From the IMG/VR virus record IMGVR_UViG_3300046472_000072, positions 1 through 53,402 of that record: a stretch of DNA of 53,402 bases. The stretch is one strand, 5' to 3'. Under the pieces are notes generated by a model, which was given only the letters and a program-made list of their open reading frames with translations, made no database searches and was not told where the DNA came from. Below are positions 2,067 through 52,953 of the stretch, one piece after another. This stretch comes from a virus. Made by a program: the position numbers and the translations under genes. How positions within the stretch are numbered: the stretch's first letter is position 1; each line of letters opens with the position of its first letter.

Positions 2067-2717
2067 TCACGCGACTTTGAAGCTCTTGTTGACCTGATCC
2101 GCAATCAATCGTGCCAACTCGACGTGTTCCTGTTGCGTAACACCCTCCTCAAGTCGCACGTCGAGATAGTGAATCCACGAGCGAATCGTGCCATTGAAGT
2201 ACGCACGCGACATAGTGTTGCCTTCTGGAAGAATTACTCGGGCACACTCTAGTGCTATTCCTCGTTCGATGGCTTCCGCATACTTGGTCTTAACAAGCGT
2301 AAGAATCTCTTCCTGGGAATCACGCCACCACTGTTTCAGGTCTTCGTTATCCGTCTGCAAACTGTTCTGGCGATTCTTATCATCTTGCAGACGGGCTTCA
2401 CGAATCATAAAAGCGTTACCGAGTTCATTCACGTTCTGGTAACGCTGGCTAAATTCTTGTGGGCGCAAGCTCCAGTGGCGCAACAGTTGACGCATGATGT
2501 CACGTGGTGCCTCCGCCTCAACAACACAGTTAGCCATATCCAGCGGAGACCAGTGGCGCATACGCTTCAGGTAGTCAATCAGCTTCTGCGCTGTGTCCAT
2601 GTTCATTTGGTTCTTTGGATTGCTAACCCTAGCGCAATAGGCGATTAGGTCTTTTGCGTCTTCCATGCCAGTGCCGTCTACAGGCGTCGTAACTGCAATC
2701 AGTCGTGCTTTAAACAT
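2067..2717 (-). CDS. thyX: Flavin-dependent thymidylate synthase ThyX
   Basis: ThyX makes dTMP from dUMP using methylene-tetrahydrofolate, NADPH and FAD, supplying thymidylate for phage DNA synthesis. The 216-residue length fits the family. The signature lies at about residues 80-90 and continues EFSQRY, as in phage ThyX proteins; further family features include RSWIHYLDVR and QQEHVELA near the C-terminus. The usual RHR is RHW here (third position Trp), a noticeable variation in the FAD/dUMP-binding motif. The ATG at 2717 has an internal AAGGAAGAG ribosome site and overlaps the end of the adjoining endonuclease gene by eight bases. Confidence 0.9.
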   Translation of the reverse strand: MFKARLIAVTTPVDGTGMEDAKDLIAYCARVSNPKNQMNMDTAQKLIDYLKRMRHWSPLDMANCVVEAEAPRDIMRQLLRHWSLRPQEFSQRYQNVNELGNAFMIREARLQDDKNRQNSLQTDNEDLKQWWRDSQEEILTLVKTKYAEAIERGIALECARVILPEGNTMSRAYFNGTIRSWIHYLDVRLEEGVTQQEHVELARLIADQVNKSFKVA

Positions 2718-3249
2718 ACTCTTCCTTGGTACTTTCATAATTCTCTAACACAAATAAGACCCTGTGATCTAGCAGGTCATGGTATTTATCAGCCAGAATT
2801 TTTGCTGTCAAAATTTTGTGTGCTACATATGCGATTCTCGCTTGTTTTGGTGTATCGTATGACCCTAGATATATGTTTTCGTTGGCAACCTTACATTGGG
2901 CTACATACTTCCCAGTACGCTTAAAGCACGTAACCCCAACAGGTAGACCATTAGACATATACGCTTCACTAGTGGCCCCCGAGAAAAACATGTTCACTTC
3001 TCTAGGAACAAAGACACATAAATCTTCGGAGTACACTTTGTTGCCGCGCTTTAGTATGTCTTTGTCCAGTTGAAAATCTTTGATACTGAATCCAGCCTGC
3101 TGATGGCACCAAGCCCGGAAGTAGGATAGGTTTGAAAAGTTTTCAGACATCGAACAACCACGGTATGTGGGTTTCTTTGACTGATAGTAGTCCCGACACC
3201 TCAGCCTCATGTTATCCCATAAGGTTCTACACCTGTCACGTTCTGTCAC
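2710..3249 (-). CDS. HNH/AP2-type homing endonuclease
   Basis: A 179-residue protein of the phage HNH-AP2 type. The N-terminal half has the LDKDILKRGNKVYS and CVFVPREVN landmarks of phage HNH homing endonucleases. The C-terminal 60 residues (GKYVAQCKV...YLGSYDTPKQARIAYVAHK) look like an AP2 DNA-binding domain. It starts with GTG overlapping the upstream stop (GTGA), and its last codons contain the ribosome site and start of thyX. Homing endonucleases are often found next to thymidylate synthase genes, which supports the call. Activity is not proven by sequence. Confidence 0.8.
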   Translation of the reverse strand: MTERDRCRTLWDNMRLRCRDYYQSKKPTYRGCSMSENFSNLSYFRAWCHQQAGFSIKDFQLDKDILKRGNKVYSEDLCVFVPREVNMFFSGATSEAYMSNGLPVGVTCFKRTGKYVAQCKVANENIYLGSYDTPKQARIAYVAHKILTAKILADKYHDLLDHRVLFVLENYESTKEEYV

Positions 3250-3557
3250 CCAACCTCCGTCTCAACATCATCATAAACTTCTTCATACACAACAGCGATT
3301 TTCTGCCCAGCAGCCTCTTTCAACTTCACAGAAAAGTTGCTCGCCACAGAGCCCACACCTTCAACGAAATCCAAATCGTACTGTGCCAGTTGCCTTGCAA
3401 CATACGCGCACAGATTGTTCAGCTTCTCGTCCAGGGTCTCCCCCTCAAGCTCCCACATGTACGATTCAAACTCGTTCACAAACTCTTGTGTGAGAATGTC
3501 GGGCCGAAGCTCAATCTCATACTCCTTTTCAATTACTACTTTGACGGTTTTCTTCAT
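3246..3557 (-). CDS. Hypothetical protein, 103 aa
   Basis: A 103-residue charged protein opening with a beta-like MKKTVKVVIEKEYEIEL segment and continuing acidic. ATG at 3557, shared with the upstream stop (TGATG), is preferred over a GTG one codon earlier. Not recognised. Confidence 0.7.
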   Translation of the reverse strand: MKKTVKVVIEKEYEIELRPDILTQEFVNEFESYMWELEGETLDEKLNNLCAYVARQLAQYDLDFVEGVGSVASNFSVKLKEAAGQKIAVVYEEVYDDVETEVG

Positions 3558-3736
3558 CACGTCTCCCTTTCCCGAATAACCACCTCATATCGCTCTGCAC
3601 ATCCTTCGCAGATCACCTTCCAATCGCCCAATCGTAAGCCATGCTTCGGATACTCTACAAAGCAATAGTCCAGGTTGGAGTCGTAGAAGGTTTTGCAATC
3701 GCAGATGTCGCAGAGCCTGTAGTCAGCCGCTGCCAT
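3557..3736 (-). CDS. Small putative zinc-binding protein, 59 aa
   Basis: A 59-residue protein packed between two genes: its start overlaps the upstream stop as TAATG and its stop overlaps the next start as TGATG. It has CDICDC near residues 9-14 and CEGC near 45-48, two cysteine pairs spaced as in a small treble-clef or zinc-ribbon fold. Metal binding is inferred from cysteine spacing only. Confidence 0.65.
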   Translation of the reverse strand: MAAADYRLCDICDCKTFYDSNLDYCFVEYPKHGLRLGDWKVICEGCAERYEVVIRERET

Positions 3737-4050
3737 TATACAGCCTCCCAGCTCACAATAGTTTTCGTAACAACCTTCTCAACACGCTTCACTTGGCTGA
3801 TGAACGGCTCACCATAGTACCAATCAGTGTGGTAGCCGCCAGAGCGGTTGTTGTCAAGTTGGAAGAAGTTACCCTCCTCGTCCGTGACAATCGTCGTGCA
3901 GTTTTGGTACTTGTGGTCCTGCACCCAATCGCCCTCTTCAACGACTGTCAGGTTGAACTCTTCAGGAAGGTTGTCAATGTCGTAGTAGCCGCAACCATAC
4001 TCATCCATGCAATACTCGTCCAGTGCTGCTGTAAGTTGTTCTAGCGTCAT
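3736..4050 (-). CDS. Hypothetical protein, 104 aa
   Basis: Acidic, tyrosine-rich 104-residue protein (MTLEQLTAALDEYCMDEYG...). It is coupled to both neighbours by overlapping start and stop codons. No recognised domain. Confidence 0.7.
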   Translation of the reverse strand: MTLEQLTAALDEYCMDEYGCGYYDIDNLPEEFNLTVVEEGDWVQDHKYQNCTTIVTDEEGNFFQLDNNRSGGYHTDWYYGEPFISQVKRVEKVVTKTIVSWEAV

Positions 4051-6910: not shown

Positions 6911-7606
6911 ATGAAACAAGTAATTGCAAGGATTTCGCCAATCACCAATACTCCGGTAATCTTCGATGTTGATTCGCGCAAGACTGGAGATGGACGCCTG
7001 AAAGCCTACCTCGATGGGAAGGATGTCCTCGTAGGGTATGACTTTTACATGAACACCGAGCACCTTCCGCAAGATCAGGCACTGAAAATCGCACGAGCTT
7101 ACGCCCAACATGCGGGCATCCCCGAGCATGAAATTATGGTTCGCCAGAGGTTCCCGAAGACTACCACTGGCAAGCGCAAGACCCATGACGCTGCGCTGAA
7201 GCTGGTTGAGAAAACTGATGAGAAGGTTGCAGACAAGCCTGAGACGCTTCAGCAACTTGCACAGGAAGTCCACGACCAGCATACGAAAGAGAAGGCTCAG
7301 AAGGAGTCCAAGAAGGCTGAGCCGAAGAAGGAAGTTAAGGTAGAGAACAAAGCAACCTCCGCCAACCCCGAAGGTGCAAAGGTTGAGCAACCGAAGCGCA
7401 GGCAGTATAACCGTAAGAACACGAAACGTTCTGAGGCAGCAATGTCTCGCTATTTGAAAGAACTTGGAAAAAATTCAGCAGTGTCGGAGACGTTGCTTGA
7501 GGCGGCTGCACCTGGACCCGGTGTGACCCCTGCTCAAGTGGATGAGGCAAAACTGAAGCTCGGCATGGCGATTGCTGAAATTTTGATGAAGTTTAATGTT
7601 CTGTGA
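6911..7606 (+). CDS. Lysine/glutamate-rich hypothetical protein, 231 aa
   Basis: A 231-residue protein with a folded-looking N-terminus (MKQVIARISPITNTPVIFDV, about 1-90), a long charged, probably coiled or disordered middle (about 90-160, many KKAE/KKE repeats), a basic stretch (QPKRRQYNRKNTKR) and a helical C-terminus. The basic tract suggests nucleic-acid contact, but no family is recognised. AAGGAG precedes the ATG. A hairpin terminator follows, and the next gene converges on it. Confidence 0.75.
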   Translation: MKQVIARISPITNTPVIFDVDSRKTGDGRLKAYLDGKDVLVGYDFYMNTEHLPQDQALKIARAYAQHAGIPEHEIMVRQRFPKTTTGKRKTHDAALKLVEKTDEKVADKPETLQQLAQEVHDQHTKEKAQKESKKAEPKKEVKVENKATSANPEGAKVEQPKRRQYNRKNTKRSEAAMSRYLKELGKNSAVSETLLEAAAPGPGVTPAQVDEAKLKLGMAIAEILMKFNVL

Positions 7607-8684
7607 GATGGTGAGCCTCTCTGTTTGGAGAGGCTTCCTCTGCGCTGAGCAGGGTATATCCATTCACTTCCTTCATGGCACCTCTGGCGAACCGGTAAAC
7701 CTGTGTTTTGGTGCAGTTTAGTATGGCAGCAATGTCCTCGGCTGATCCCCTAACAACATCCCCAGTGGGGATGTTGTGTAAGGTGTAAAATCCGTTCTTT
7801 AGAGGCTTCTTGCGTTCCTTTTTCAGTCTAGGATCGTCCTCAAGAGTTGAATTAAGGCAGAAATCTCCGCATTTTACCATCTTACCTTTCAGCACGGCGA
7901 AAACACTACCCGCTGGTAGGCTGTATTCCTCGATCAATTGTCTACTCGTCTTGTGCAGGACTTCCCCTGTAGAAATTCTTCTAAACTCTCTGAGTATGGC
8001 GGGCCTATGATTCCAATCGTCTGTACTGGCCATGCAGTAACCTTGTGTAAACTTCACCTCTCCATCTACAATTCTGTTTACATAAGTAATAGGTATGTCT
8101 GCAAATACGCTAAATTCCTTCCTAGTCATCTGGTAAGTCTCGCCAGAGACGATATGCTTAAACATATGCAGAGTGCTGTCTAGTACATTAGGGACCGCCA
8201 TGTTTGATACTGCCATACAAACGCCTTTAGATGTTGTTATTTGCCCCAAAACCAGCCTCGCCACGTCGTTCCTAGTAAGGCCAAATTTTTTCTTGGCGTC
8301 ATCTCTGGTTCCGACCAAAACTTCGCCTGTTCGTAAATCTCTGAACTCATACTTCTTGAAGTCCTTCCTTTTCGCAAGAAACCTGCGAACCGCTTCTTCC
8401 TTAACCCTTGCATACATCTTTCTATTCTTAACTACTGTCCTTCCATCTCTTGGAATGAGCATTGCTTTGGCTGCGTACCACAGCTCGTCAGTGTCGTATG
8501 CCTTAGCTAACAACAAGTGCGCCATAAAGTGGTCTTCCACAGTAAGGTAAACCAAGTTCTCTGGCTCATCCCCTCCTCCCATGCATCTTGCAACGATATG
8601 GTGCCTCTCATAGTACACACCTTCCAGCTTCGGCATCATCTTCCTGTGCTCAATCAACTCATTGTAGATGCGCAGGTAATCCAT
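7593..8684 (-). CDS. HNH homing endonuclease with C-terminal NUMOD-type repeats
   Basis: A 363-residue protein. The HNH nuclease domain is near residues 25-60 (YYERHHIVARCMGGG, then ENLVYL and the helical HFMAHLLLAKAY). Four repeats of about 55-70 residues follow, each with a (S/T)GE or (S/T)GD turn and a small helix-turn-helix; these are NUMOD-type DNA-binding modules typical of phage homing endonucleases. It lies antisense to the surrounding early genes and is the second gene of a cassette whose first gene stops in a TGATG overlap with this start. A homologous cassette lies at 18.2-19.4 kb. Confidence 0.85.
   Translation of the reverse strand: MDYLRIYNELIEHRKMMPKLEGVYYERHHIVARCMGGGDEPENLVYLTVEDHFMAHLLLAKAYDTDELWYAAKAMLIPRDGRTVVKNRKMYARVKEEAVRRFLAKRKDFKKYEFRDLRTGEVLVGTRDDAKKKFGLTRNDVARLVLGQITTSKGVCMAVSNMAVPNVLDSTLHMFKHIVSGETYQMTRKEFSVFADIPITYVNRIVDGEVKFTQGYCMASTDDWNHRPAILREFRRISTGEVLHKTSRQLIEEYSLPAGSVFAVLKGKMVKCGDFCLNSTLEDDPRLKKERKKPLKNGFYTLHNIPTGDVVRGSAEDIAAILNCTKTQVYRFARGAMKEVNGYTLLSAEEASPNREAHHLTEH
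7614..7635 (+). terminator. Hairpin terminator, rightward
   Basis: AGCCTCTC-TGTTTG-GAGAGGCT is an eight-pair stem with a weak T-rich tail, just after the stop at 7606. It lies inside the 3' end of the convergent HNH gene. Confidence 0.5.
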
Positions 8685-18221: not shown

Positions 18222-19136
18222 TCAGTTTTTCCTTATTTCTTTCTTAGTTCCGGTGATCGTCTCGCCTTCAGCATTAATTAGGCGGATTGGCTTGAACTTC
18301 TCTGCCAAAACTCTCTCGTAATTTTCTGGTAGACAATACCCGAACGATGTCAGTGACTTTCCATTAGTTATATGTGAAACTGAGCTATTGTGCATTCCTG
18401 TCAACCTCATCAACTCTGGACGAGTGCCAGTTATGACTGCACCTGATTCTATGTGAACTAGCGTAAACTCATCCACGGCTTTTGTTTTCTTGGTAGGGTC
18501 AGTTCCTTCTAAATAGTATTTGCCAGCGACAAGTTTTATTCTACGTGTCAATGAGTAAATACTAGCCTCTGAGATTCCTAATTTCTCGCTCAACTCTTTA
18601 GCAGTGCCTGTATGGGTCAGGCCATCTTCAAGACTAACTATGTTGTACTTCTTGTGTTTACCGGCATTTTCTGCGTTTCCCGCCAAGCAAATACCCCTAG
18701 CAGACGCTGAGATACCTCTGACTAATTTACTCGTCTGGGAAAAATCCAACCCGTATTCCTTTTGTAGATATTCCCTTGTGGCCGTAAACACCTTACCCGT
18801 CCTCAAGTCTTCAAACTCATACTCTGTTTGGTCGGACACATAAATTGCTAGATTTCTTCTTGCGACAGCAAACATATGTCTATTCCTTATAACTCGCCCG
18901 TTTTGCGGCATCTGCATTGCAATAATGGCTCTCCACATAGGCCCGCCGTACGTCTTTGCCAGGAGGAGATGTGCGAAGTAGTGTTCTTCGTATGTTAAGT
19001 ATATAAGGTTCTCGTCGTCATCGCGTCCACCAAGACTCACAGGGTGTATGTGGTGACGTTCGTAATACTCGGAGTTCAGTTTAGGGCGGAATTTGCGACT
19101 TTCTATGAAGTCGTCATAAATCTTGTTGTAGTTCAT
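18222..19136 (-). CDS. HNH homing endonuclease with NUMOD-type repeats (cassette 2)
   Basis: A 304-residue relative of the protein at 7593-8684. The HNH domain is near residues 23-60 (YYERHHIHPVSLGGRDDDEN), followed by three full NUMOD-type repeats. A fourth begins (RLINAEGETITGTKKEIRKN) but is cut by a stop. In the -1 frame the missing part continues at once as LNVSSGFFKQPIVGKGSNNE and ends at 18157, so the fourth repeat is split by one base at an AAAAA run. Its ATG overlaps the stop of the MSRxFDY gene (ATGA). Confidence 0.85.
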   Translation of the reverse strand: MNYNKIYDDFIESRKFRPKLNSEYYERHHIHPVSLGGRDDDENLIYLTYEEHYFAHLLLAKTYGGPMWRAIIAMQMPQNGRVIRNRHMFAVARRNLAIYVSDQTEYEFEDLRTGKVFTATREYLQKEYGLDFSQTSKLVRGISASARGICLAGNAENAGKHKKYNIVSLEDGLTHTGTAKELSEKLGISEASIYSLTRRIKLVAGKYYLEGTDPTKKTKAVDEFTLVHIESGAVITGTRPELMRLTGMHNSSVSHITNGKSLTSFGYCLPENYERVLAEKFKPIRLINAEGETITGTKKEIRKN

Positions 19137-27832: not shown

Positions 27833-28498
27833 TCAATTCCAGCGAGAAATCACACGACAGATACTTGCTGCACTCCAATCACCGCCTCGCGCAGTAGGAA
27901 CTCCTAGCGCGTTCATTTCTTCAGCAATCTCAGCATAGGTCATTCCACAATTCTTCATACGCTCGATGGGTGGGCGGACATGCGCAGCAAACCTGTCAGC
28001 CTTGGCTTTCACCATAACAGCAGCTTTCTCGCGAGCCTCTGGCAAGTTGGTACGGTTGCCCAGGATGACACCTCGCGCCTTAGCTGCTGCCAACCCTGCT
28101 TTGGTACGCAGGCCAATCATCTTGCGCTCTTTCTCGGCAAGCCCAGCAAAAATTGTACCAACGAACTCGTCGTGCTCGGCCCCGAGGTCGATGGCAATAA
28201 CTTGCTTCTTCTTCTGTATATACTCACGCGAGATATCGAAGTCCCTGCTGAACCTATCGCTCTTAGTCACCACCACCTGAGCCTTCATCTTTTTGGCCAT
28301 AGCAAGGGCCATCGACATTACGGGACGGTCTTTCATCGGCGTGCTGCCAGAGATCACCTCATCCATGATTGTGACGAGGTTATATCCGTGATGCAGTGCC
28401 CAGCGTTCGATCTCTGCCCGTTGACTGTCCAAACCGTTTTTCGTGATGGACTGCGAGCGGGTTGAGACCCTGCAAACCCCAATGAAAGTTTTAGTCAT
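27833..28498 (-). CDS. Serine recombinase (resolvase/invertase family)
   Basis: A 221-residue small serine recombinase. The catalytic serine is in GVCRVSTRSQS (residue 12), with the VTKSDRFSRD arginine motif near 80 and GLAEKERKMIGLRTKAGL leading into the long helix. The C-terminus (GMTYAEIAEEMNALGVPTAR, GG.W) is the helix-turn-helix DNA-binding part. Such enzymes invert or resolve DNA between short sites, or move small elements. It is too short for a large serine integrase. AAGGAG precedes the ATG. The next gene upstream shares its C-terminal half. Confidence 0.85.
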   Translation of the reverse strand: MTKTFIGVCRVSTRSQSITKNGLDSQRAEIERWALHHGYNLVTIMDEVISGSTPMKDRPVMSMALAMAKKMKAQVVVTKSDRFSRDFDISREYIQKKKQVIAIDLGAEHDEFVGTIFAGLAEKERKMIGLRTKAGLAAAKARGVILGNRTNLPEAREKAAVMVKAKADRFAAHVRPPIERMKNCGMTYAEIAEEMNALGVPTARGGDWSAASICRVISRWN

Positions 28499-28559
28499 TA
28501 TTCTTCTCCTTGTATATACCGTTTAGATTCCACAATGATAGACAAAGAAAATGAGCACG

Positions 28560-29015
28560 TCAAGCAGATTCTTTAGAGAGTACTGCCTTGGCCCGAACCC
28601 ATACGTTACTCACTGATTTGCTGTACCACTTTCCACCGCGAGCTGTTGCAATATTCTGGCTGTTGAGGTATTCTGCTATTGTGTCGAGAGGCATGCCCTG
28701 CTCTTTCATAGGCAAAATAATTTCGTAAATCTTCAAAGCAAACTCGTTTGCGCGTGCGGTCTGAGACTCCCGACCAAGCCTCCTGGCTTCTTCTGCGTTG
28801 GTGTGATTACCTAGTTTAACTCCACGCTCCTTCGCACGCCTCAGCCCTTCCCTCGTAAGCTCAGCATGGTTATCCCTCCGCTTCCATCCGGCGTCATGCA
28901 CTCGTTCGTGACAAGACCCACAAAGTGGGACAGTCTTAGTACCTCCTAAGCTCTGAGGGATTACATGGTGATCTTCAGTCGCTGGTGCCGCACATTCAAA
29001 ACATTCTTTTAACAT
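28560..29015 (-). CDS. HNH nuclease fused to a resolvase-type DNA-binding domain
   Basis: A 151-residue chimera. Residues 1-45 are an HNH domain (CFECAAPATEDHHVIPQSLG, then LCGSCHERVH, with paired cysteines for zinc). From about 53 to the end it aligns with the C-terminal half of the neighbouring serine resolvase: GL..AK.RGV.LGN.TN..EAR, then MK..GM....IAE..N......ATARGG.W...S. A nuclease domain thus replaces the recombinase catalytic domain on the same DNA-binding platform. Probably a homing or site-directed nuclease. CTGGAGAACT precedes the ATG. Confidence 0.85.
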   Translation of the reverse strand: MLKECFECAAPATEDHHVIPQSLGGTKTVPLCGSCHERVHDAGWKRRDNHAELTREGLRRAKERGVKLGNHTNAEEARRLGRESQTARANEFALKIYEIILPMKEQGMPLDTIAEYLNSQNIATARGGKWYSKSVSNVWVRAKAVLSKESA

Positions 29016-35575: not shown

Positions 35576-36026
35576 GTCGTTGTCTTCATGAGTATTACCT
35601 CCCACGCTTGGCACCGCGTGTCCCCGAAACGTGCTGTAGAGGGCTCTCACGAGCCTGTCTACAAAGCCATTCTCCTGTAGTTGCGCTGCCCTCCTCAGCA
35701 ATGCTATGGGATCGAGTGGCTCTGTAGATAACATTAGAACATTGTCTGCTGGATTGGCTGAAAGATTAGGCACTTTACTTGTAATAAAGACTATGTGGGT
35801 TTGAGTCCTACATCCAGCAGAGAGTGTTTTACAGTCTACGCAAGCAAACCGCATCCGGTCTGTAGAGACGGCTCTTGCCTGTGCGCTTGCATTTATTTAG
35901 CGAGTGACGATATATGCGTAAGCGTCAGAATCCCCTACCTGGGACTGTTAGCCTTACGGCTGACGAGGCTTCTTCGAGAGGCTAAGAGGCTGTGGAATTC
36001 AGCCCACAAGAACACAAGGAGAGATT
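35576..36026 (+). other. Transcribed non-coding stretch with tRNA and hairpins
   Basis: About 450 bases without a protein gene. It holds the tRNA at 35748-35819 and, after it, several short stems: TGACG/CGTCA (35905-35927), AGCC-TTAC-GGCT (35950-35961) and GGCTG/CAGCC (35988-36004). A 30-codon frame at 35588 has no ribosome site and is not called. Confidence 0.45.
35748..35819 (+). tRNA. tRNA-Thr (anticodon TGT)
   Basis: A 72-base cloverleaf: acceptor GCTGGAT/ATCCAGC with discriminator A; short three-pair D stem (GCT/GGC); anticodon stem CTTTA/TAAAG with loop CTTGTAA (anticodon TGT at 35780-35782); T stem GTGGG/CCTAC with loop TTTGAGT. CCA is not encoded. The D-loop lacks the usual GG and the T-loop has T instead of C at its third position, so it is somewhat degenerate. 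Confidence 0.7.
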
Positions 36027-36188
36027 ATGTCGAAGGATACATCGTTTCATCACGACTGTGGTAAGGGCTCCAGGCCAAGGTCTTACAGTGTGACGCAGGA
36101 AGAGTTTGGTAAGAACTGGGATGCAATCTTTGGTAAGAAGGCTGAAGAGGCGTCTGTAGAAGAGGAGAAGATCGATGAGCAAAATTGA
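36027..36188 (+). CDS. Small phage-type hypothetical protein, 53 aa
   Basis: A 53-residue protein (MSKDTSFHHDCGKGSRPRSY...) with a VTQEEFGKNWDAIFGKK segment, a pattern seen in small proteins near phage head genes. AAGGAGAGATT precedes the ATG. Function unknown. Confidence 0.7.
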   Translation: MSKDTSFHHDCGKGSRPRSYSVTQEEFGKNWDAIFGKKAEEASVEEEKIDEQN

Positions 36189-36399
36189 GGGTATACGATT
36201 GGTGCTGCCTGCAAAAGCCAAAGGCAAACTTTCCACAGCAAGTGCCACTAAAGTTTATCTCGTAGAAGAGTTGTCCGACATCCCTCTGCACGAACTTAAA
36301 GGAGTCACCTCTTTCGGTGTCCCAGAGGCCAATGCAGATGGCGTTCTTTCTATTACTGTGACGATGCCACTGCTTGAAGTGGTGTACGCAGAAGAATAA
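36175..36399 (+). CDS. Hypothetical protein, 74 aa
   Basis: A 74-residue beta-rich protein (MSKIEGIRLVLPAKAKGKLS...) that overlaps the previous gene by 14 bases, with GGAGAAGATCG before the ATG. Not recognised. Confidence 0.7.
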   Translation: MSKIEGIRLVLPAKAKGKLSTASATKVYLVEELSDIPLHELKGVTSFGVPEANADGVLSITVTMPLLEVVYAEE

Positions 36400-36715
36400 G
36401 TTCTGGTTGTAGCACTACTGTCGAGGTCATGAAAGCCGACGAGGGCTGACACAAATTCTCGTAACAAATTTGCCCAACAGGACAAGCTCCATCTGGGCAT
36501 ACTCCGCTTCGGCGGATTCGAGGAGAGGGCGTCTGTATGGGCGCTGAAGAGGGTCGGGAAGGAAGGTGCTGCGACTCCACCAATTATTTATAGGCTGCAC
36601 GGCAGGGATGCTGTGTGGCTTTTTGTTGTTTCAAGTTTTGTGGCGAACGGATTAGCTATCCTCTCCAGTGCTACACCACTGGATAGTCACTCTTATTAAC
36701 TCGTGTAGGAGCATT
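36400..36715. other. Intergenic stretch before the GIY-YIG gene
   Basis: About 315 bases with no gene seen. It has a TCCGC-TTCG-GCGGA hairpin (36503-36516) and a CCAGTG-N6-CACTGG hairpin near the end. No clear promoter. Confidence 0.35.
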
Positions 36716-37864
36716 ATGAGCGGAAGATTTAAGAAAGGTCAAGGGTTTATTGACTTGACCGGAGAGCGTTACGGCATGTTGACGGTACTTGAGTTTGTTG
36801 GGCAAGACAAGCACAAACGGAGTAAATGGAGATGCCAATGCGACTGTGGCGCTATCACAGAAGAATTCGGAGCTGAGATGAAACACGGAAGTGTTAAGTC
36901 TTGTGGATGTGCAATGACGTGGAAGCGACCGCGAAGGGTTGATCTTGTAGAATTTCTAAGTCGCGCCAAAGAAAAACATGGTGAAAGGTACGACTATTCC
37001 TCTGTGGAGTATAAGAATACTAGCACACATGTGAATATTAGGTGCCACGATCACGGAATTTTTGCACAGACTCCTACTCAACACTATCGCGGTGGGCAAG
37101 GGTGCCCGAAATGTGCTTACGAAGAAAAAGCAAGAGCCAAGCGCAGTAACACCGAAACTTTTGTTCAAGAGGCCAAGAAAAGAAATGGTGGTAATTTTGA
37201 TTACTCTCTTGTTCATTACAGTGATAGTCAAACTCCAGTTGAGGTCATCTGCAAGACCTGTAATACCAACTTTAAACAACGCCCCAGCGTCCATTTACTT
37301 GGTAGTGGTTGCCCAGCATGCGCGAATGCGGACAAAAAGGAACGGTATACGCTCAGCACTGAAGAGTATGTAGAAAAAGCTAAAACTATTTTTCAAGATA
37401 GTGAGTATTGTTATAAGGGCACCGTTTATACGTATTCTAAGGATAAGATTGAGGTCTTTTGCAACTGCTGCAAGTCTACCTTCAAGATTAGGGCAGATGT
37501 CCACTTACGCGGCCACGGGTGCCCTTGTAAAACAACTCATGGATTTGATTTTACCCGTCCTGGGACGCTCTACATCTTAGAGTGTGGACCTATTACTAAG
37601 ATTGGAATTACATCACATGAAGTGAGCCGAAGAATCAAGGACATCTCAAGGTCTTACGGCGTAAATTTTAACCTTGTGACGGAGTTTGAGGTAGAAGACC
37701 CTAGACTCTGCTCAGATGTGGAAACAGAGATGTTACGGTATCTTAGGAGTTGTTATAAACAGCCGAACGACAAATTCGATGGTTATACGGAGTGCTTCTA
37801 CGATGTTGACCAACGTGACCTTATCAACAGGTTGAAAATTAAGCTGGAGGTATATGACCAGTAA
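36716..37864 (+). CDS. DUF723/GIY-YIG homing endonuclease 1, adjacent to the terL intron
   Basis: A 382-residue protein. Residues 1-65 form a zinc module (GERYGMLTVLEFVGQ, CQCDCGAI, SCGC). Three DUF723-type repeats follow, each with a YDYS-type stretch, a V.I.C..HG or V.CK.C segment and a terminal GCPxC. The C-terminus (TLYILECGPITKIGITS ... LRSCYKQPNDKFDGYTECFY) is a GIY-YIG-like MUG113/T5orf172 nuclease. Its last 11 bases overlap exon 1 of terL and carry the terL ribosome site. It probably cuts intron-less terL and so spreads the neighbouring intron; inferred from position. Confidence 0.85.
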   Translation: MSGRFKKGQGFIDLTGERYGMLTVLEFVGQDKHKRSKWRCQCDCGAITEEFGAEMKHGSVKSCGCAMTWKRPRRVDLVEFLSRAKEKHGERYDYSSVEYKNTSTHVNIRCHDHGIFAQTPTQHYRGGQGCPKCAYEEKARAKRSNTETFVQEAKKRNGGNFDYSLVHYSDSQTPVEVICKTCNTNFKQRPSVHLLGSGCPACANADKKERYTLSTEEYVEKAKTIFQDSEYCYKGTVYTYSKDKIEVFCNCCKSTFKIRADVHLRGHGCPCKTTHGFDFTRPGTLYILECGPITKIGITSHEVSRRIKDISRSYGVNFNLVTEFEVEDPRLCSDVETEMLRYLRSCYKQPNDKFDGYTECFYDVDQRDLINRLKIKLEVYDQ

Positions 37865-39608
37865 GAAAAAAGTTTATGGCCCTGCAAGTGAGAAGCAGCG
37901 CCTTATTCTAACAGATCGAACTACAGACGTAATTTTGATCGGCGGTGGTAGGTAATCCAGTGCCTCCGCTTTACCAACAAACCCTTAATTCGGTGGAACT
38001 CTCAATGAGACAATACCGAGCGAAGCCTAGAAATAGGAACGTGTAACGACTAGCCGTAAGGCGTAGGCCCGAGTGGGCCGAAACAGGGTTCAGCCGCTCA
38101 GCGGTGGAAGATATAGTCTGCTCCTTACAGTGATGTAAGGCTGCTTAATAAGCGGGATAAGATTAACGACCTTATCCGAACACTACCTCATGGCTGGTGG
38201 GGGTAAATCAGCAACATGTTTGATCAAAAACCTTGACGGGGTTAATGACCCGCACTTCAGATGCACAATTTTCCGTCGCACATACCCTGAGCTTAAGCGT
38301 CAAGGTGGACTAATTGACGAAAGCAAATCTATCTATTCGTCTTGGTCTGGGGAATACAAATCTCAAGCCATGGTATGGAATTTTAAGTCTGGAGCATCTA
38401 TTGCTTTCTCAGCGATCGCCTCCGATGATGACTTAGGCTCCTGGCAAGGTTCCCAACTTACCCGCGTGCTGATCGACGAAGCTGGTGACAAGTGGACAGA
38501 GAAGCAGGTTTTGTTTCTTCTGTCACGTATCCGCTCTGCGCATAGCAAGATTTACCCGCAGATGATACTTTCATGCAACCCGGATATTAATTCGTTCTTG
38601 AAAAAATGGGTCGATTTCAGTCTTGGACCTGACGGTGTTCCTCTGCCGGGAACAGAGCACAGAATTCGTTGGTTTGTCACTGTAGAAAACCAAGTGTTGT
38701 GGGCGGACTCTGCTGAAGAGTGCTACGAACTCCACGGCAAGCCGCGCAATATGGTTTATGCACGAGGAATGTCCGAGGAAGAGATTAAGAAGCATTCGCC
38801 TGATAAACTCTTTATGCCGAAGAGCTTCCGCTTTATCCCAACCGGAGTATTCGACAATCCGTACCTGTTGCCGCCGAGAAACAACACGTATTTGGCGAAC
38901 CTGTTGTCTCAGCCATATGTGAATCAGTTAAGATTTTTGCATGGTTCCTGGACAGCTCGCGAAGCTGGAGAATCCTTCTTCCGCAGGGATTGGGTAGAGA
39001 TTGTTGATAAGCCACCTGTCAAGGTAACGGGACGTGTAAGAGCGTATGACTTTGCTGCATCCGAGGAGCCTAGCCACGGAGGTTCCTCAAGGGACCCCGA
39101 TTACACGGTTGGTTGCCTCATGAGCCGTGACAGCTCTGGGACTTTATTCATTGAGCATATCAGGCGGTATAGAAAACTCACGGATGGCGTCTTAAAGGAC
39201 GTTATCGAGACAGGGTACAATGATGGTGTAGAAGTGCCTGTACTGATTCCGAAAGATCCAGGTGCAGGTGGTGCAGCAGCTCACCTCTTCTTTGTTCAGC
39301 ACCTATCCGAAGCAGGACTTTCCGTAAAGACCGTGAAGGTAAGTGGACACTCTGGCAAACTCCAACGGGCACAGCCATTTTTTGCAATGGCAGAGGCAGG
39401 CAAGGTCAAGATCGTCAGGGATTCTGAAGGTGACAGGTTCGTAGAGAATATGCTGATGGAATTGGAGTATTTCACAGGTGGTCGGAATGAGAAGAATGAT
39501 CAGGTCGATGCTATCGCCGATGCTGCCAATTTCCTTATGAGGCAACAGGTGATGCCGAATTTCACACTAGCCATAAACACCCAACCCTCACCAATCCCCT
39601 CCCTATAA
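37854..39608 (+). CDS. terL: Terminase large subunit, interrupted by a group I intron
   Basis: Two exons, 37854-37949 and 38193-39608, join in frame to a 503-residue TerL. Exon 1 (MTSKKKVYGPASEKQRLILT ... DVILIGGG) has GGAGGTAT before its ATG. Splicing creates Walker A GGGAGGGKS across the junction. Walker B is RVLIDEAGD, and the C-terminal nuclease domain has YDFAASEE and KNDQVDAIADAANFL. TerL is the ATP-driven motor and nuclease that packages DNA into proheads. The ATG at 38190 is the accidental last three bases of the intron, not a start. Confidence 0.9.
37950..38192 (+). ncRNA. Group I intron (243 nt, no internal ORF)
   Basis: Exon 1 ends in T at 37949, and its last bases GCGGTGGT pair with the internal guide GCCTCCGC at 37962-37969, leaving the conserved U-G pair at the 5' splice site. 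The P7 strands GACTA (38048-38052) and TAGTC (38114-38118, within the hallmark AGATATAGTC) are present. The intron ends in G at 38192, and CCAG at 37957-37960 can pair with CTGG of exon 2 (P10). Removing it restores the terL P-loop. It should self-splice; its short length explains the lack of an internal endonuclease. Confidence 0.9.
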
Positions 39609-44045: not shown

Positions 44046-44053
44046 GATTCTTA
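44043..44053. promoter_or_regulatory. Perfect TAAGAWTCTTA palindrome at the capsid stop
   Basis: TAAGATTCTTA includes the stop codon of the capsid gene. Further partial copies lie at 44085 and 44114. Confidence 0.45.
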
Positions 44054-44069
44054 GCCCTCCTAAGAGGGC
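44054..44069 (+). terminator. Terminator after the capsid gene
   Basis: GCCCTC-CTAA-GAGGGC, followed by TTAAGTCTCTT. Confidence 0.6.
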
Positions 44070-44078
44070 TTAAGTCTC

Positions 44079-44107
44079 TTGACTATAAGAATCTCTCCTG
44101 CTATAAT
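44079..44107 (+). promoter_or_regulatory. Sigma70-like promoter of GIY-YIG gene 2
   Basis: TTGACT, 17 bases, TATAAT. The spacer carries TAAGAATCTCT. Confidence 0.75.
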
Positions 44108-44139
44108 GGCGGGTTAGATTCTTATGTTAAGGAGATTTA

Positions 44140-45102
44140 ATGGCACGGAAGAAGTCTCAAGAAGAGATACTTACTCTGGCGGTTCAGAAGCACAATAACT
44201 ACTACACGTACGAACATGCTGTTTACGTAGACTCTAAAACGAAGTTTCAAGTGACATGCCCTAACCATGGGCCGTTTTGGATCACTCCAAATAATCACCT
44301 ATCTGGGAAGGGGTGCTCAAAGTGTGGAGATGTTAGAACCGCATCGAGCAAACAGAAGACCACCAGCGTATTTACCAATCAAGTGGAAGAACGGTTTCCC
44401 GGTAAATACGATTTTTCGTGCACGCTGTATAAGTCCGCAAGAGCGAAAGTAGATGTCCGTTGTACGGAGCATGATATTGTTTTTCAAATTACGCCAGACA
44501 ATCTCTTAAGGGGCAAGGGTTGCCCACTCTGCGGAATCGCTTCTCGTGTCAACACAAGAAAAGCCCAATTTGATGAGATGGTTCCAGAAAACGAGCGACG
44601 ATTTGCGGAAGACATTCTGAAGGTGCATGGAGGAAGATACGAATACTTGGGTGGGTATCGAACCAAGGAGAGTCTTGTTTCTCTATTGTGCAAAGATCAC
44701 GGGGAGTTTAAACAAAAAGCGCTGGATCACATCGGAGGTTGTGGTTGTCCATCTTGTGCAGATTATGGCTTTAATCCGGCCAAATCTGGGACAGTGTACG
44801 TTATGCAAGATGGCGAACTCGTAAAAGTTGGTATTACAAACCGCGCTGCAAACATTCGGTTAAGGAATATCAAACGATCTTCTTCGCGTAATTTTTCAGT
44901 AGTTTGCAGTTTTAACTTTGACCAAGGCCACACTGCGCGAGATATCGAAACCGCACTCCTCCGTGAACTACGTTCCCAGTATGAACAACCTACAGAGAAG
45001 TTCGACGGCTCCACAGAATGCTTCTACAACGTCAACCTTCCAGCCCTCCTCGCCCGAATTGAAGAACTAATTAAGGAACACACATGCCTCTCATCGATTT
45101 GA
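44140..45102 (+). CDS. DUF723/GIY-YIG homing endonuclease 2
   Basis: A 320-residue relative of the proteins at 36716 and 51784. Three zinc-containing DUF723-type repeats (ending GCSKCG, GCPLCG, GCPSCA) are followed by a GIY-YIG-like domain (TVYVMQDGELVKVGITN ... LRSQYEQPTEKFDGSTECFY). It has its own terminator-bounded promoter, so it is expressed apart from the capsid gene, and its last 19 bases overlap the next connector gene. Confidence 0.85.
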   Translation: MARKKSQEEILTLAVQKHNNYYTYEHAVYVDSKTKFQVTCPNHGPFWITPNNHLSGKGCSKCGDVRTASSKQKTTSVFTNQVEERFPGKYDFSCTLYKSARAKVDVRCTEHDIVFQITPDNLLRGKGCPLCGIASRVNTRKAQFDEMVPENERRFAEDILKVHGGRYEYLGGYRTKESLVSLLCKDHGEFKQKALDHIGGCGCPSCADYGFNPAKSGTVYVMQDGELVKVGITNRAANIRLRNIKRSSSRNFSVVCSFNFDQGHTARDIETALLRELRSQYEQPTEKFDGSTECFYNVNLPALLARIEELIKEHTCLSSI

Positions 45103-51783: not shown

Positions 51784-52953
51784 ATGCCAGCAAAACTATC
51801 GCAAGAAGAATACCTCAAACGTTGTGTTGAAAAGCATGGAAATAAGTATGGACTGCAACACATAGAGTACGCCCGAACATCTTCCAAGGTCAAGGTAGAG
51901 TGTTATGAACATGGTATTTTCCACGTACACGCAGGAACGTTTATGCGCGGTACAGGGTGTGCCAAATGCGCCTACGAGTACAACGGATTGAAACACAGAG
52001 TTACGCAGGAAGATTTTATAACGCGCAGCAGAGAGATTCACGGCGAAGCTTACGACTACAAGACCGTTGTCTACACTAAATCAGATGTAAAAGTAAAGAT
52101 TTGGTGTAATGCTTGTGCCAATGAGTTCGAGATGACCCCTGAAGCGCATCTCGTGGGGCAGGGTTGTCGAACATGCGGATACAAACGGAATGGTCTTGCC
52201 AAGAGGGCAGACTTCGCAAAGTTTGTAGAGGAATCTCGGTTTCATCACGGCGACAAGTTCAGCTACGAGCATGTTGAAGGCGTTTGGACAGGCATCCACA
52301 CCAAATTCGACCTTTACTGTCACGTGCATCAAGAGTGTTTTGTGGCATACGCTTCTACGCATGCTAAAGGTGCTGGCTGTCCCAAGTGCGCAAAGATCGC
52401 AGGTGGGATCAAGAATAGAAGTGATACTGAGACTTTCATCCAGCAAGGAAAGAAAAAGTTTGGGGACGCTTTCGATTATACCAAGGCAGACTACGTTAAG
52501 AATAACAAGAAGGTTACGCTCCGCTGCACGGAGCATGACAAGTGGTTCAACGTCACGCCAAACGTCCACTTGCACCCAGATAACACCCACGGAGGTTGCC
52601 CACAGTGCGTACAGGCTGGATATAAAATAGCGAAGCCTGGTTATCTGTACGTTCTACATGTCGATGAACTGACTAAGGTAGGAATCACAAACAGACAACC
52701 GGAAGTCCGTTGCAAGTCTGTTGCCAGAGAATCGAGTAAGAGTTTTGAAGTTCTCAAGGCATACTATTTCAATAATGGCATGCTCCCTAGAGAGATTGAG
52801 ACAACATTGTTGAGGGAGCTAAGAGCGCAGTACAAGCAGCCTCTGGAACGTTTTGATGGCTCTAAAGAAACCTTCTACAACGTCAACCTCGCATCCCTCC
52901 TAAACCGCATCGAAGAATTAATAGCAACACAAACAGCGGCACTAGCCGCGTAA
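51784..52953 (+). CDS. DUF723/GIY-YIG homing endonuclease 3
   Basis: A 389-residue member of the same family as the proteins at 36716 and 44140. Four DUF723-type repeats end in GCAKCA, GCRTCG, GCPKCA and GCPQC. The GIY-YIG-like domain (YLYVLHVDELTKVGITN ... LRAQYKQPLERFDGSKETFY) is at the C-terminus. It is inserted between the tail tube and tail-assembly chaperone genes. Start at 51784 with AAGAAAGAG upstream. Confidence 0.85.
   Translation: MPAKLSQEEYLKRCVEKHGNKYGLQHIEYARTSSKVKVECYEHGIFHVHAGTFMRGTGCAKCAYEYNGLKHRVTQEDFITRSREIHGEAYDYKTVVYTKSDVKVKIWCNACANEFEMTPEAHLVGQGCRTCGYKRNGLAKRADFAKFVEESRFHHGDKFSYEHVEGVWTGIHTKFDLYCHVHQECFVAYASTHAKGAGCPKCAKIAGGIKNRSDTETFIQQGKKKFGDAFDYTKADYVKNNKKVTLRCTEHDKWFNVTPNVHLHPDNTHGGCPQCVQAGYKIAKPGYLYVLHVDELTKVGITNRQPEVRCKSVARESSKSFEVLKAYYFNNGMLPREIETTLLRELRAQYKQPLERFDGSKETFYNVNLASLLNRIEELIATQTAALAA

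Follow-up and report, generated by a model that had tools for sequence, protein, structure and literature searches.

A free-standing GIY-YIG nuclease gene and an ORF-less group I intron at the 5' end of a phage terL gene, with interchangeable nucleases at related loci

The window analysed here is a 53,402-base IMG/VR virus record of an uncultured phage. In this sequence, a free-standing endonuclease gene of the GIY-YIG type (T5orf172/MUG113) with zinc-finger repeats precedes a split gene for the terminase large subunit (terL), both on the + strand. The nuclease gene (36716-37864, 382 aa) was identified from its ORF, Pfam, PHROG 681 and an alignment of catalytic residues; it runs from an ATG at 36716 to a TAA ending at 37864. 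The first terL exon (37854-37949, 32 codons, 96 nt), recognized because its spliced product is homologous to intron-less terL, begins with an ATG at 37854, so the two genes overlap by 11 bases, as an initial sequence-only reading had reported. Next comes a group I intron of 243 nt (37950-38192), inserted in the Walker A (P-loop) codons and assigned from Rfam, splice-site geometry and intron-less relatives; it is followed by exon 2 (38193-39608), which encodes the ATPase and RNase H-like nuclease domains (Pfam Terminase_6N and Terminase_6C; PHROG 979, terminase large subunit). That reading also described the intron as ORF-less and as closely following the nuclease gene; no ORF lies within 37950-38192, and the distance from the nuclease stop to the intron is 85-86 bases. 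Ahead of the nuclease gene lies a leader RNA (36640-36715). An ORF-less intron beside a free-standing nuclease gene is the architecture of collaborative homing.

The intron matches Intron_gpI (RF00028) at 37921-38140 with 61.3 bits, against a gathering score of 50. The splice sites were placed between 37949 and 37950 and between 38192 and 38193 because of the P1 pairing and the intron-terminal G, and because joining the exons there rebuilds the packaging ATPase's Walker A loop, IGGGAGGGKS, exactly in frame. In P1, the exon end CGGUGGU pairs with the internal guide sequence (IGS) GCCUCCG, leaving a U.G pair at the splice site. A core above the gathering score, the U.G pair, the terminal G and the restored frame are the features of a group I intron, and we infer from them that this intron self-splices. 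Thirteen other introns at or near this insertion site have the same splice geometry, with L047 as a partial exception: its P-loop intron (3767-4000) lacks the usual terminal G or U.G unless the junction is moved by one base, no nuclease is found nearby, and it is possibly decaying.

Pfam detects MUG113 (22.4 bits, cut-off 22.3) and a treble-clef zinc finger, DUF4379 (25.0 bits, cut-off 24.5), in the nuclease, and PHROG 681, annotated as 'endonuclease', matches it with an E-value of 5.9e-59. Contrary to the earlier label DUF723/GIY-YIG, Pfam does not assign DUF723 to the window protein itself, although a terL-adjacent homologue (L068) does match that family. The protein consists of a zinc-finger repeat array followed by a degenerate GIY-YIG domain, in whose core Y286, G297, R306 and E336 are invariant in an alignment of ten relatives. 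This combination of the catalytic Tyr, Arg and Glu with zinc-finger DNA-binding repeats is that of a T5orf172/MUG113 GIY-YIG homing endonuclease, and by homology the protein is a probable nuclease. A fold search with its predicted structure (pLDDT 81, pTM 0.35) gave no significant PDB match, phmmer against the PDB gave none, and a scan of IMG/VR with the nuclease protein alone returned distant matches only, mostly to the N-terminal zinc finger. Two further GIY-YIG-type nucleases are encoded in the window, at 44140-45102 and 51784-52953. On the minus strand there are three candidate HNH/AP2-type homing nucleases (2710-3249, 7593-8684 and 18222-19136), the first of which overlaps the stop-start region of a ThyX-like gene (2067-2738), and a serine recombinase ORF adjoining an ORF with an HNH motif and a Recombinase-domain segment in Pfam (27833-29015).

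The arrangement at terL is real but not new: its counterpart in phage ICP1 has already been published with the same layout (PMC10448857), and the window is therefore another case of a published arrangement. In ICP1, a T5orf172 nuclease lies beside the terL N-terminal exon and splicing was shown by RNA-seq and RT-PCR; its authors offer two readings, collaborative homing and nuclease turnover (PMC10448857). The ICP1 terL locus (NC_015157) comprises the T5orf172 nuclease gp131, exon 1 as ORF129, and terL exon 2. As in the window, a nuclease of this family abuts a short terL exon 1 and is located outside the intron; in the ICP1 record the overlap between gp131 and exon 1 is 4 nt, and the intron occupies the window's P-loop position (between GGA and AGGGKS). 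However, the two terL products are 26-28% and the two nucleases 24% identical, the intron sequences have diverged, and ICP1 infects Vibrio cholerae, whereas the window is from an uncultured IMG/VR phage. New here are a comparative test, nuclease families that substitute for one another, a P-loop occupied by both intron and intein, and the leader RNA; the arrangement is common to many distant phages, with one cultured case published.

Few worked cases underlie collaborative homing. In cyanophage S-PM2, F-CphI and the psbA intron form such a unit, but F-CphI has an EndoVII-type active site rather than GIY-YIG, and its cut at the intron site is proven, whereas the window nuclease is a candidate by sequence. 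The trans homing of the T4 nrdB intron (I-TevIII) by mobE is similar in that a neighbouring free-standing nuclease mobilizes an intron without an active nuclease (PMC2988022); it differs in that the nrdB intron carries a defunct nuclease and in the nuclease family, which is HNH.

In the leader, P1 (36640-36644/36686-36690) and P3 (36664-36670/36677-36683) are accompanied by a predicted pseudoknot, in which the loop CUACAC (36671-36676) is complementary to GUGUAG (36703-36708), abutting the Shine-Dalgarno sequence. A closing stem, two hairpins and the loop-to-strand complementarity are common to six loci (the window, L008, L020, L068, L128 and L129), and the complementarity is kept under different loop sequences (CUCUACU, CCUUAAC and CUGUACU). 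Across the six, 129 of 130 stem cells are standard pairs, a count biased towards the proposed structure because the stems were aligned by hand, and covariation is seen in P1, P3 and the pseudoknot. A search of IMG/VR with the leader pattern returned 22 stretches; four were chance matches and the other 18 all lie directly before a nuclease gene abutting terL exon 1. The leader is a concrete candidate regulatory element, and no Rfam family matches it. One copy (L173) precedes a nuclease that lacks the GIY motif and is similar to the HNH/AP2 type, consistent with replacement of the nuclease in situ. In T4, too, homing-nuclease genes (mobE, segB and I-TevI) have structured RNA at their ribosome-binding sites (PMC2988022). 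Those are hairpins that sequester the ribosome site, whereas the window RNA is a junction whose predicted pseudoknot joins a loop to the Shine-Dalgarno flank, and terL-adjacent nucleases have it in common.

Two other leader types were noticed. One lies upstream of the nuclease ATG in L014, L061, L041 and L118, before GIY and HNH nucleases alike, and has the form CCUCCUCAGG...CCUGAGGAGG, sequestering the ribosome site. The other, upstream of the nuclease in L114, L115 and L021, at 44050-44140 of the window and in L111, is a ribosome-site stem around a promoter-like box, TATAATGG, and resembles the T4 nuclease genes in which a promoter lies within the hairpin.

When IMG/VR was searched with terL and with alignments of it, about 60 distinct loci were found, and about 70 related terL loci entered the comparison as a whole; near-duplicates were removed before counting. 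A search of genome contigs found no terL relative. An exact 20-base intron pattern matched L020 only, and a degenerate intron-core pattern matched 45 stretches, including additional P-loop introns. Thirteen of the loci have a P-loop intron. Directly before terL, three of these encode a GIY-YIG nuclease (the window, L020 and L068), four an HNH nuclease of one type (L040, L041, L114 and L130), three a second HNH type with AP2 domains (L048, L118 and L121), and three no nuclease (L043, L045 and L047). One further P-loop intron belongs to a 5'-truncated locus (L044). The introns lie in four registers within the GGN-rich codons (-3, 0, +6 and +12 relative to the window), and every spliced product restores the Walker A loop. 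Inteins are found in the same loop. L117 has a LAGLIDADG intein after GGGK, before the S (around 2980-4000), first considered as a long intron and rejected as such because the frame is uninterrupted. L043 (2691-4000) has both an intron and a LAGLIDADG intein in its P-loop, 18 nt apart, and is the sole case of a P-loop intein in place of the abutting nuclease. Insertions elsewhere in terL, at residue 124 in L114/L115, residues 119 and 284 in L069 and residue 240 in L151, are probably introns as well.

An abutting nuclease is present at 10 of the 13 P-loop-intron loci and at 7 of 40 intron-less loci in the terL-ascertained sample (Fisher p=0.00017), a test that ignores relatedness and compares groups of partly different lineage drawn from metagenomic contigs, some of them short. 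The seven are five GIY (L008, L014, L061, L128 and L129) and two HNH loci (L115 and L021); in L021, terL is split across opposite strands with a GGDKS P-loop, and this is probably an inverted chimeric assembly. A tree-paired sign test on the terL tree found eight independent pairs, on average 6.4 in the same direction and 0.4 in the opposite one (median p=0.031). In other terL lineages, four introns were picked by the intron-core pattern, blind to nucleases, and all four have an abutting nuclease (L073 GIY; L092, L101 and L111 HNH). Pooling both samples gives 14 of 17 intron loci with a nuclease versus 7 of 40 intron-less ones (p=6e-6). The co-occurrence is thus above chance for nucleases of any family, and because of these counts the pattern that the sequence-only reading had named as speaking against its proposal, introns without the nuclease as often as with it, is not what relatives display when any nuclease is counted. 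The picture differs by family. In the terL-ascertained sample the GIY-YIG family alone is found at 3 of 13 intron and 5 of 40 intron-less loci (p=0.39), and HNH alone, the neighbour of most introns, is associated with the intron (p=0.0003).

The association bears on the possibility that two hot spots merely coincide, the region upstream of terL drawing nucleases and the P-loop drawing introns, without a functional link. T5orf172 genes are generally enriched near terminases, in 35% of neighbourhoods (PMC10448857), the window itself has three GIY-type nucleases and further HNH genes, and the GIY nuclease is about equally frequent with and without an intron. However, the association exceeds chance also in the tree-paired and intron-ascertained comparisons, and an ORF-less intron moving between lineages needs some nuclease in trans; we consider such a coincidence unlikely. 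Much less probable still is a role for the nuclease in DNA packaging rather than homing, as proposed for the HNH protein beside the HK97 terminase. Its tight placement before terL, overlapping the start codon, and the precedent discussed in PMC10448857 would suit such a role, but the nuclease is missing in 36 of 53 close and distant relatives, unrelated nuclease families substitute for it, and the other copies in the window sit elsewhere.

Nucleases without introns are frequent. Among 13 distinct leader+GIY units (including L068 and the window), a P-loop intron is present in six and absent from seven, whereas the intron is found in 3 of 36 nuclease-less terL genes (p=0.0065, comparing a leader-ascertained set with nuclease-less loci of partly different lineages); the nuclease is therefore often intron-free and the intron seldom nuclease-free. 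In this comparison alone does the GIY-specific association reach significance. Twelve nuclease-bearing loci lack a P-loop intron, and a terL-abutting GIY nuclease accompanies an uninterrupted P-loop in L008, L014, L061, L128, L129, L161, L164, L168 and L175. L008 has a homologous GIY nuclease and the window-type leader, and its P-loop DNA is identical to that of the nuclease-free L009; intron protection is therefore unneeded in L008. We also considered a recoded, resistant P-loop in nuclease-bearing intron-less phages, which fits L115 by eye and is contradicted by L008.

These loci weigh on collaborative homing in the strict sense of F-CphI, in which the nuclease would cut the intron-less P-loop at about codon 32, the intron would split the site and protect its carrier, and the two would spread jointly. 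The identical architecture in ICP1, where the label was used (PMC10448857), and the strong intron-nuclease association argue for it, and P-loop DNA is evidently cleavable, with LAGLIDADG inteins 18 nt away (L043) or in the same codon (L117). A codon-32 cut and intron immunity are possible for the window enzyme. However, the many terL-abutting GIY nucleases beside an uninterrupted P-loop, L008 above all, are not accounted for, the GIY-specific association is absent from the terL-ascertained sample, and intron register varies while intron similarity is independent of nuclease type; overall we find the strict form rather doubtful. As a candidate collaborative homing unit, the sequence-only proposal stands for the architecture and for the association with a nuclease of any family, but is unsupported as a fixed pair and, in the terL-ascertained sample, as a GIY-specific association.

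Intron presence requires 11-12 changes on the terL tree, with clustering no greater than for shuffled labels, and intron identity shows no correlation with that of the exons (rho=0.06). L040 and L118 have introns 82% identical and exons 57% identical, and in L047 and L114 the TerL proteins are 96% identical in amino acids while the introns are 62% identical and in different registers. Intron state and identity are thus independent of terL lineage, which points to repeated acquisition or horizontal movement of the intron. Nor does intron similarity match nuclease type (permutation p=0.41), so intron and nuclease are not a fixed pair, and three unrelated nuclease types (GIY-YIG, HNH A and HNH B) occupy the identical spot before terL. 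In the GIY tree, intron-bearing and intron-less loci are intermixed; the intron tree groups the window, L020 and L068, all GIY loci, with support of only 34/79. The comparison shows how the locus is built, that intron and nuclease are associated, that introns move independently of terL lineage and that nucleases turn over. Exon DNA is too diverged for clean co-conversion tracts: the window-L020 exon comparison is ambiguous, and L114/L115 exon identity, 89% in codons 1-30 and 77-78% just after, hints at a tract with unclean borders. Phage-module mosaic recombination or RNA reverse splicing could be other routes of intron transfer.

The comparison of loci suggests that the nuclease drives the spread and that the intron is usually carried along. 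We tentatively favour, at close to even chances, a homing hub at the terL 5' end with the nuclease as driver and the ORF-less intron as dependent passenger; this fits the data better than a fixed pair and makes a cut at codon 32 unnecessary. The free-standing nuclease, whose gene sits exactly at the start codon of terL and has a regulatory leader of its own, would cut alleles that lack a nuclease somewhere in the 5' region of terL, and donor-templated repair would copy the nuclease gene with flanking terL and therefore also the ORF-less intron 85-86 bp away. Without a nuclease of its own, the intron would depend on this transfer, and its excision would be required to restore the ATPase loop. 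The driver would be replaceable in place by other families, HNH types A and B and occasionally an intein. For the window phage, we infer nuclease activity, a cut site in this region, co-conversion and splicing.

More broadly, and with somewhat less confidence, the terL 5' end may serve tailed phages in general as a homing hub. One family of P-loop-targeted ORF-less introns would be served by interchangeable mobilizers (GIY-YIG, two HNH types and P-loop inteins), swapped in situ behind a shared, exchangeable leader whose pseudoknot would gate the nuclease ribosome site. If so, the intron survives as the passenger of whichever driver occupies the slot. A single gene position now provides about 20 alleles with the intron and over 40 without it, with matched close relatives in four states: intron only (L047), neither (L050), both (L114) and nuclease without P-loop intron (L115). 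Such a set opens up the questions of which element drives the other, whether one nuclease replaces another while the intron stays in place, and by what means the nuclease is restrained.

Upstream of the locus, the window has a tRNA gene at 35748-35819 (Rfam, 50.9 bits), and in several relatives between one and four tRNAs precede terL. A conserved non-coding stretch (36400-36630) separates the gene at 36175-36399 from the nuclease and terL and ends in a terminator-like hairpin (ggctgcacggcagggatgctgtgtggcttttt). Equivalents are found in L007, L009, L011, L008 and L020, kept with and without the nuclease, and the stretch may be a structured RNA belonging to the packaging module.
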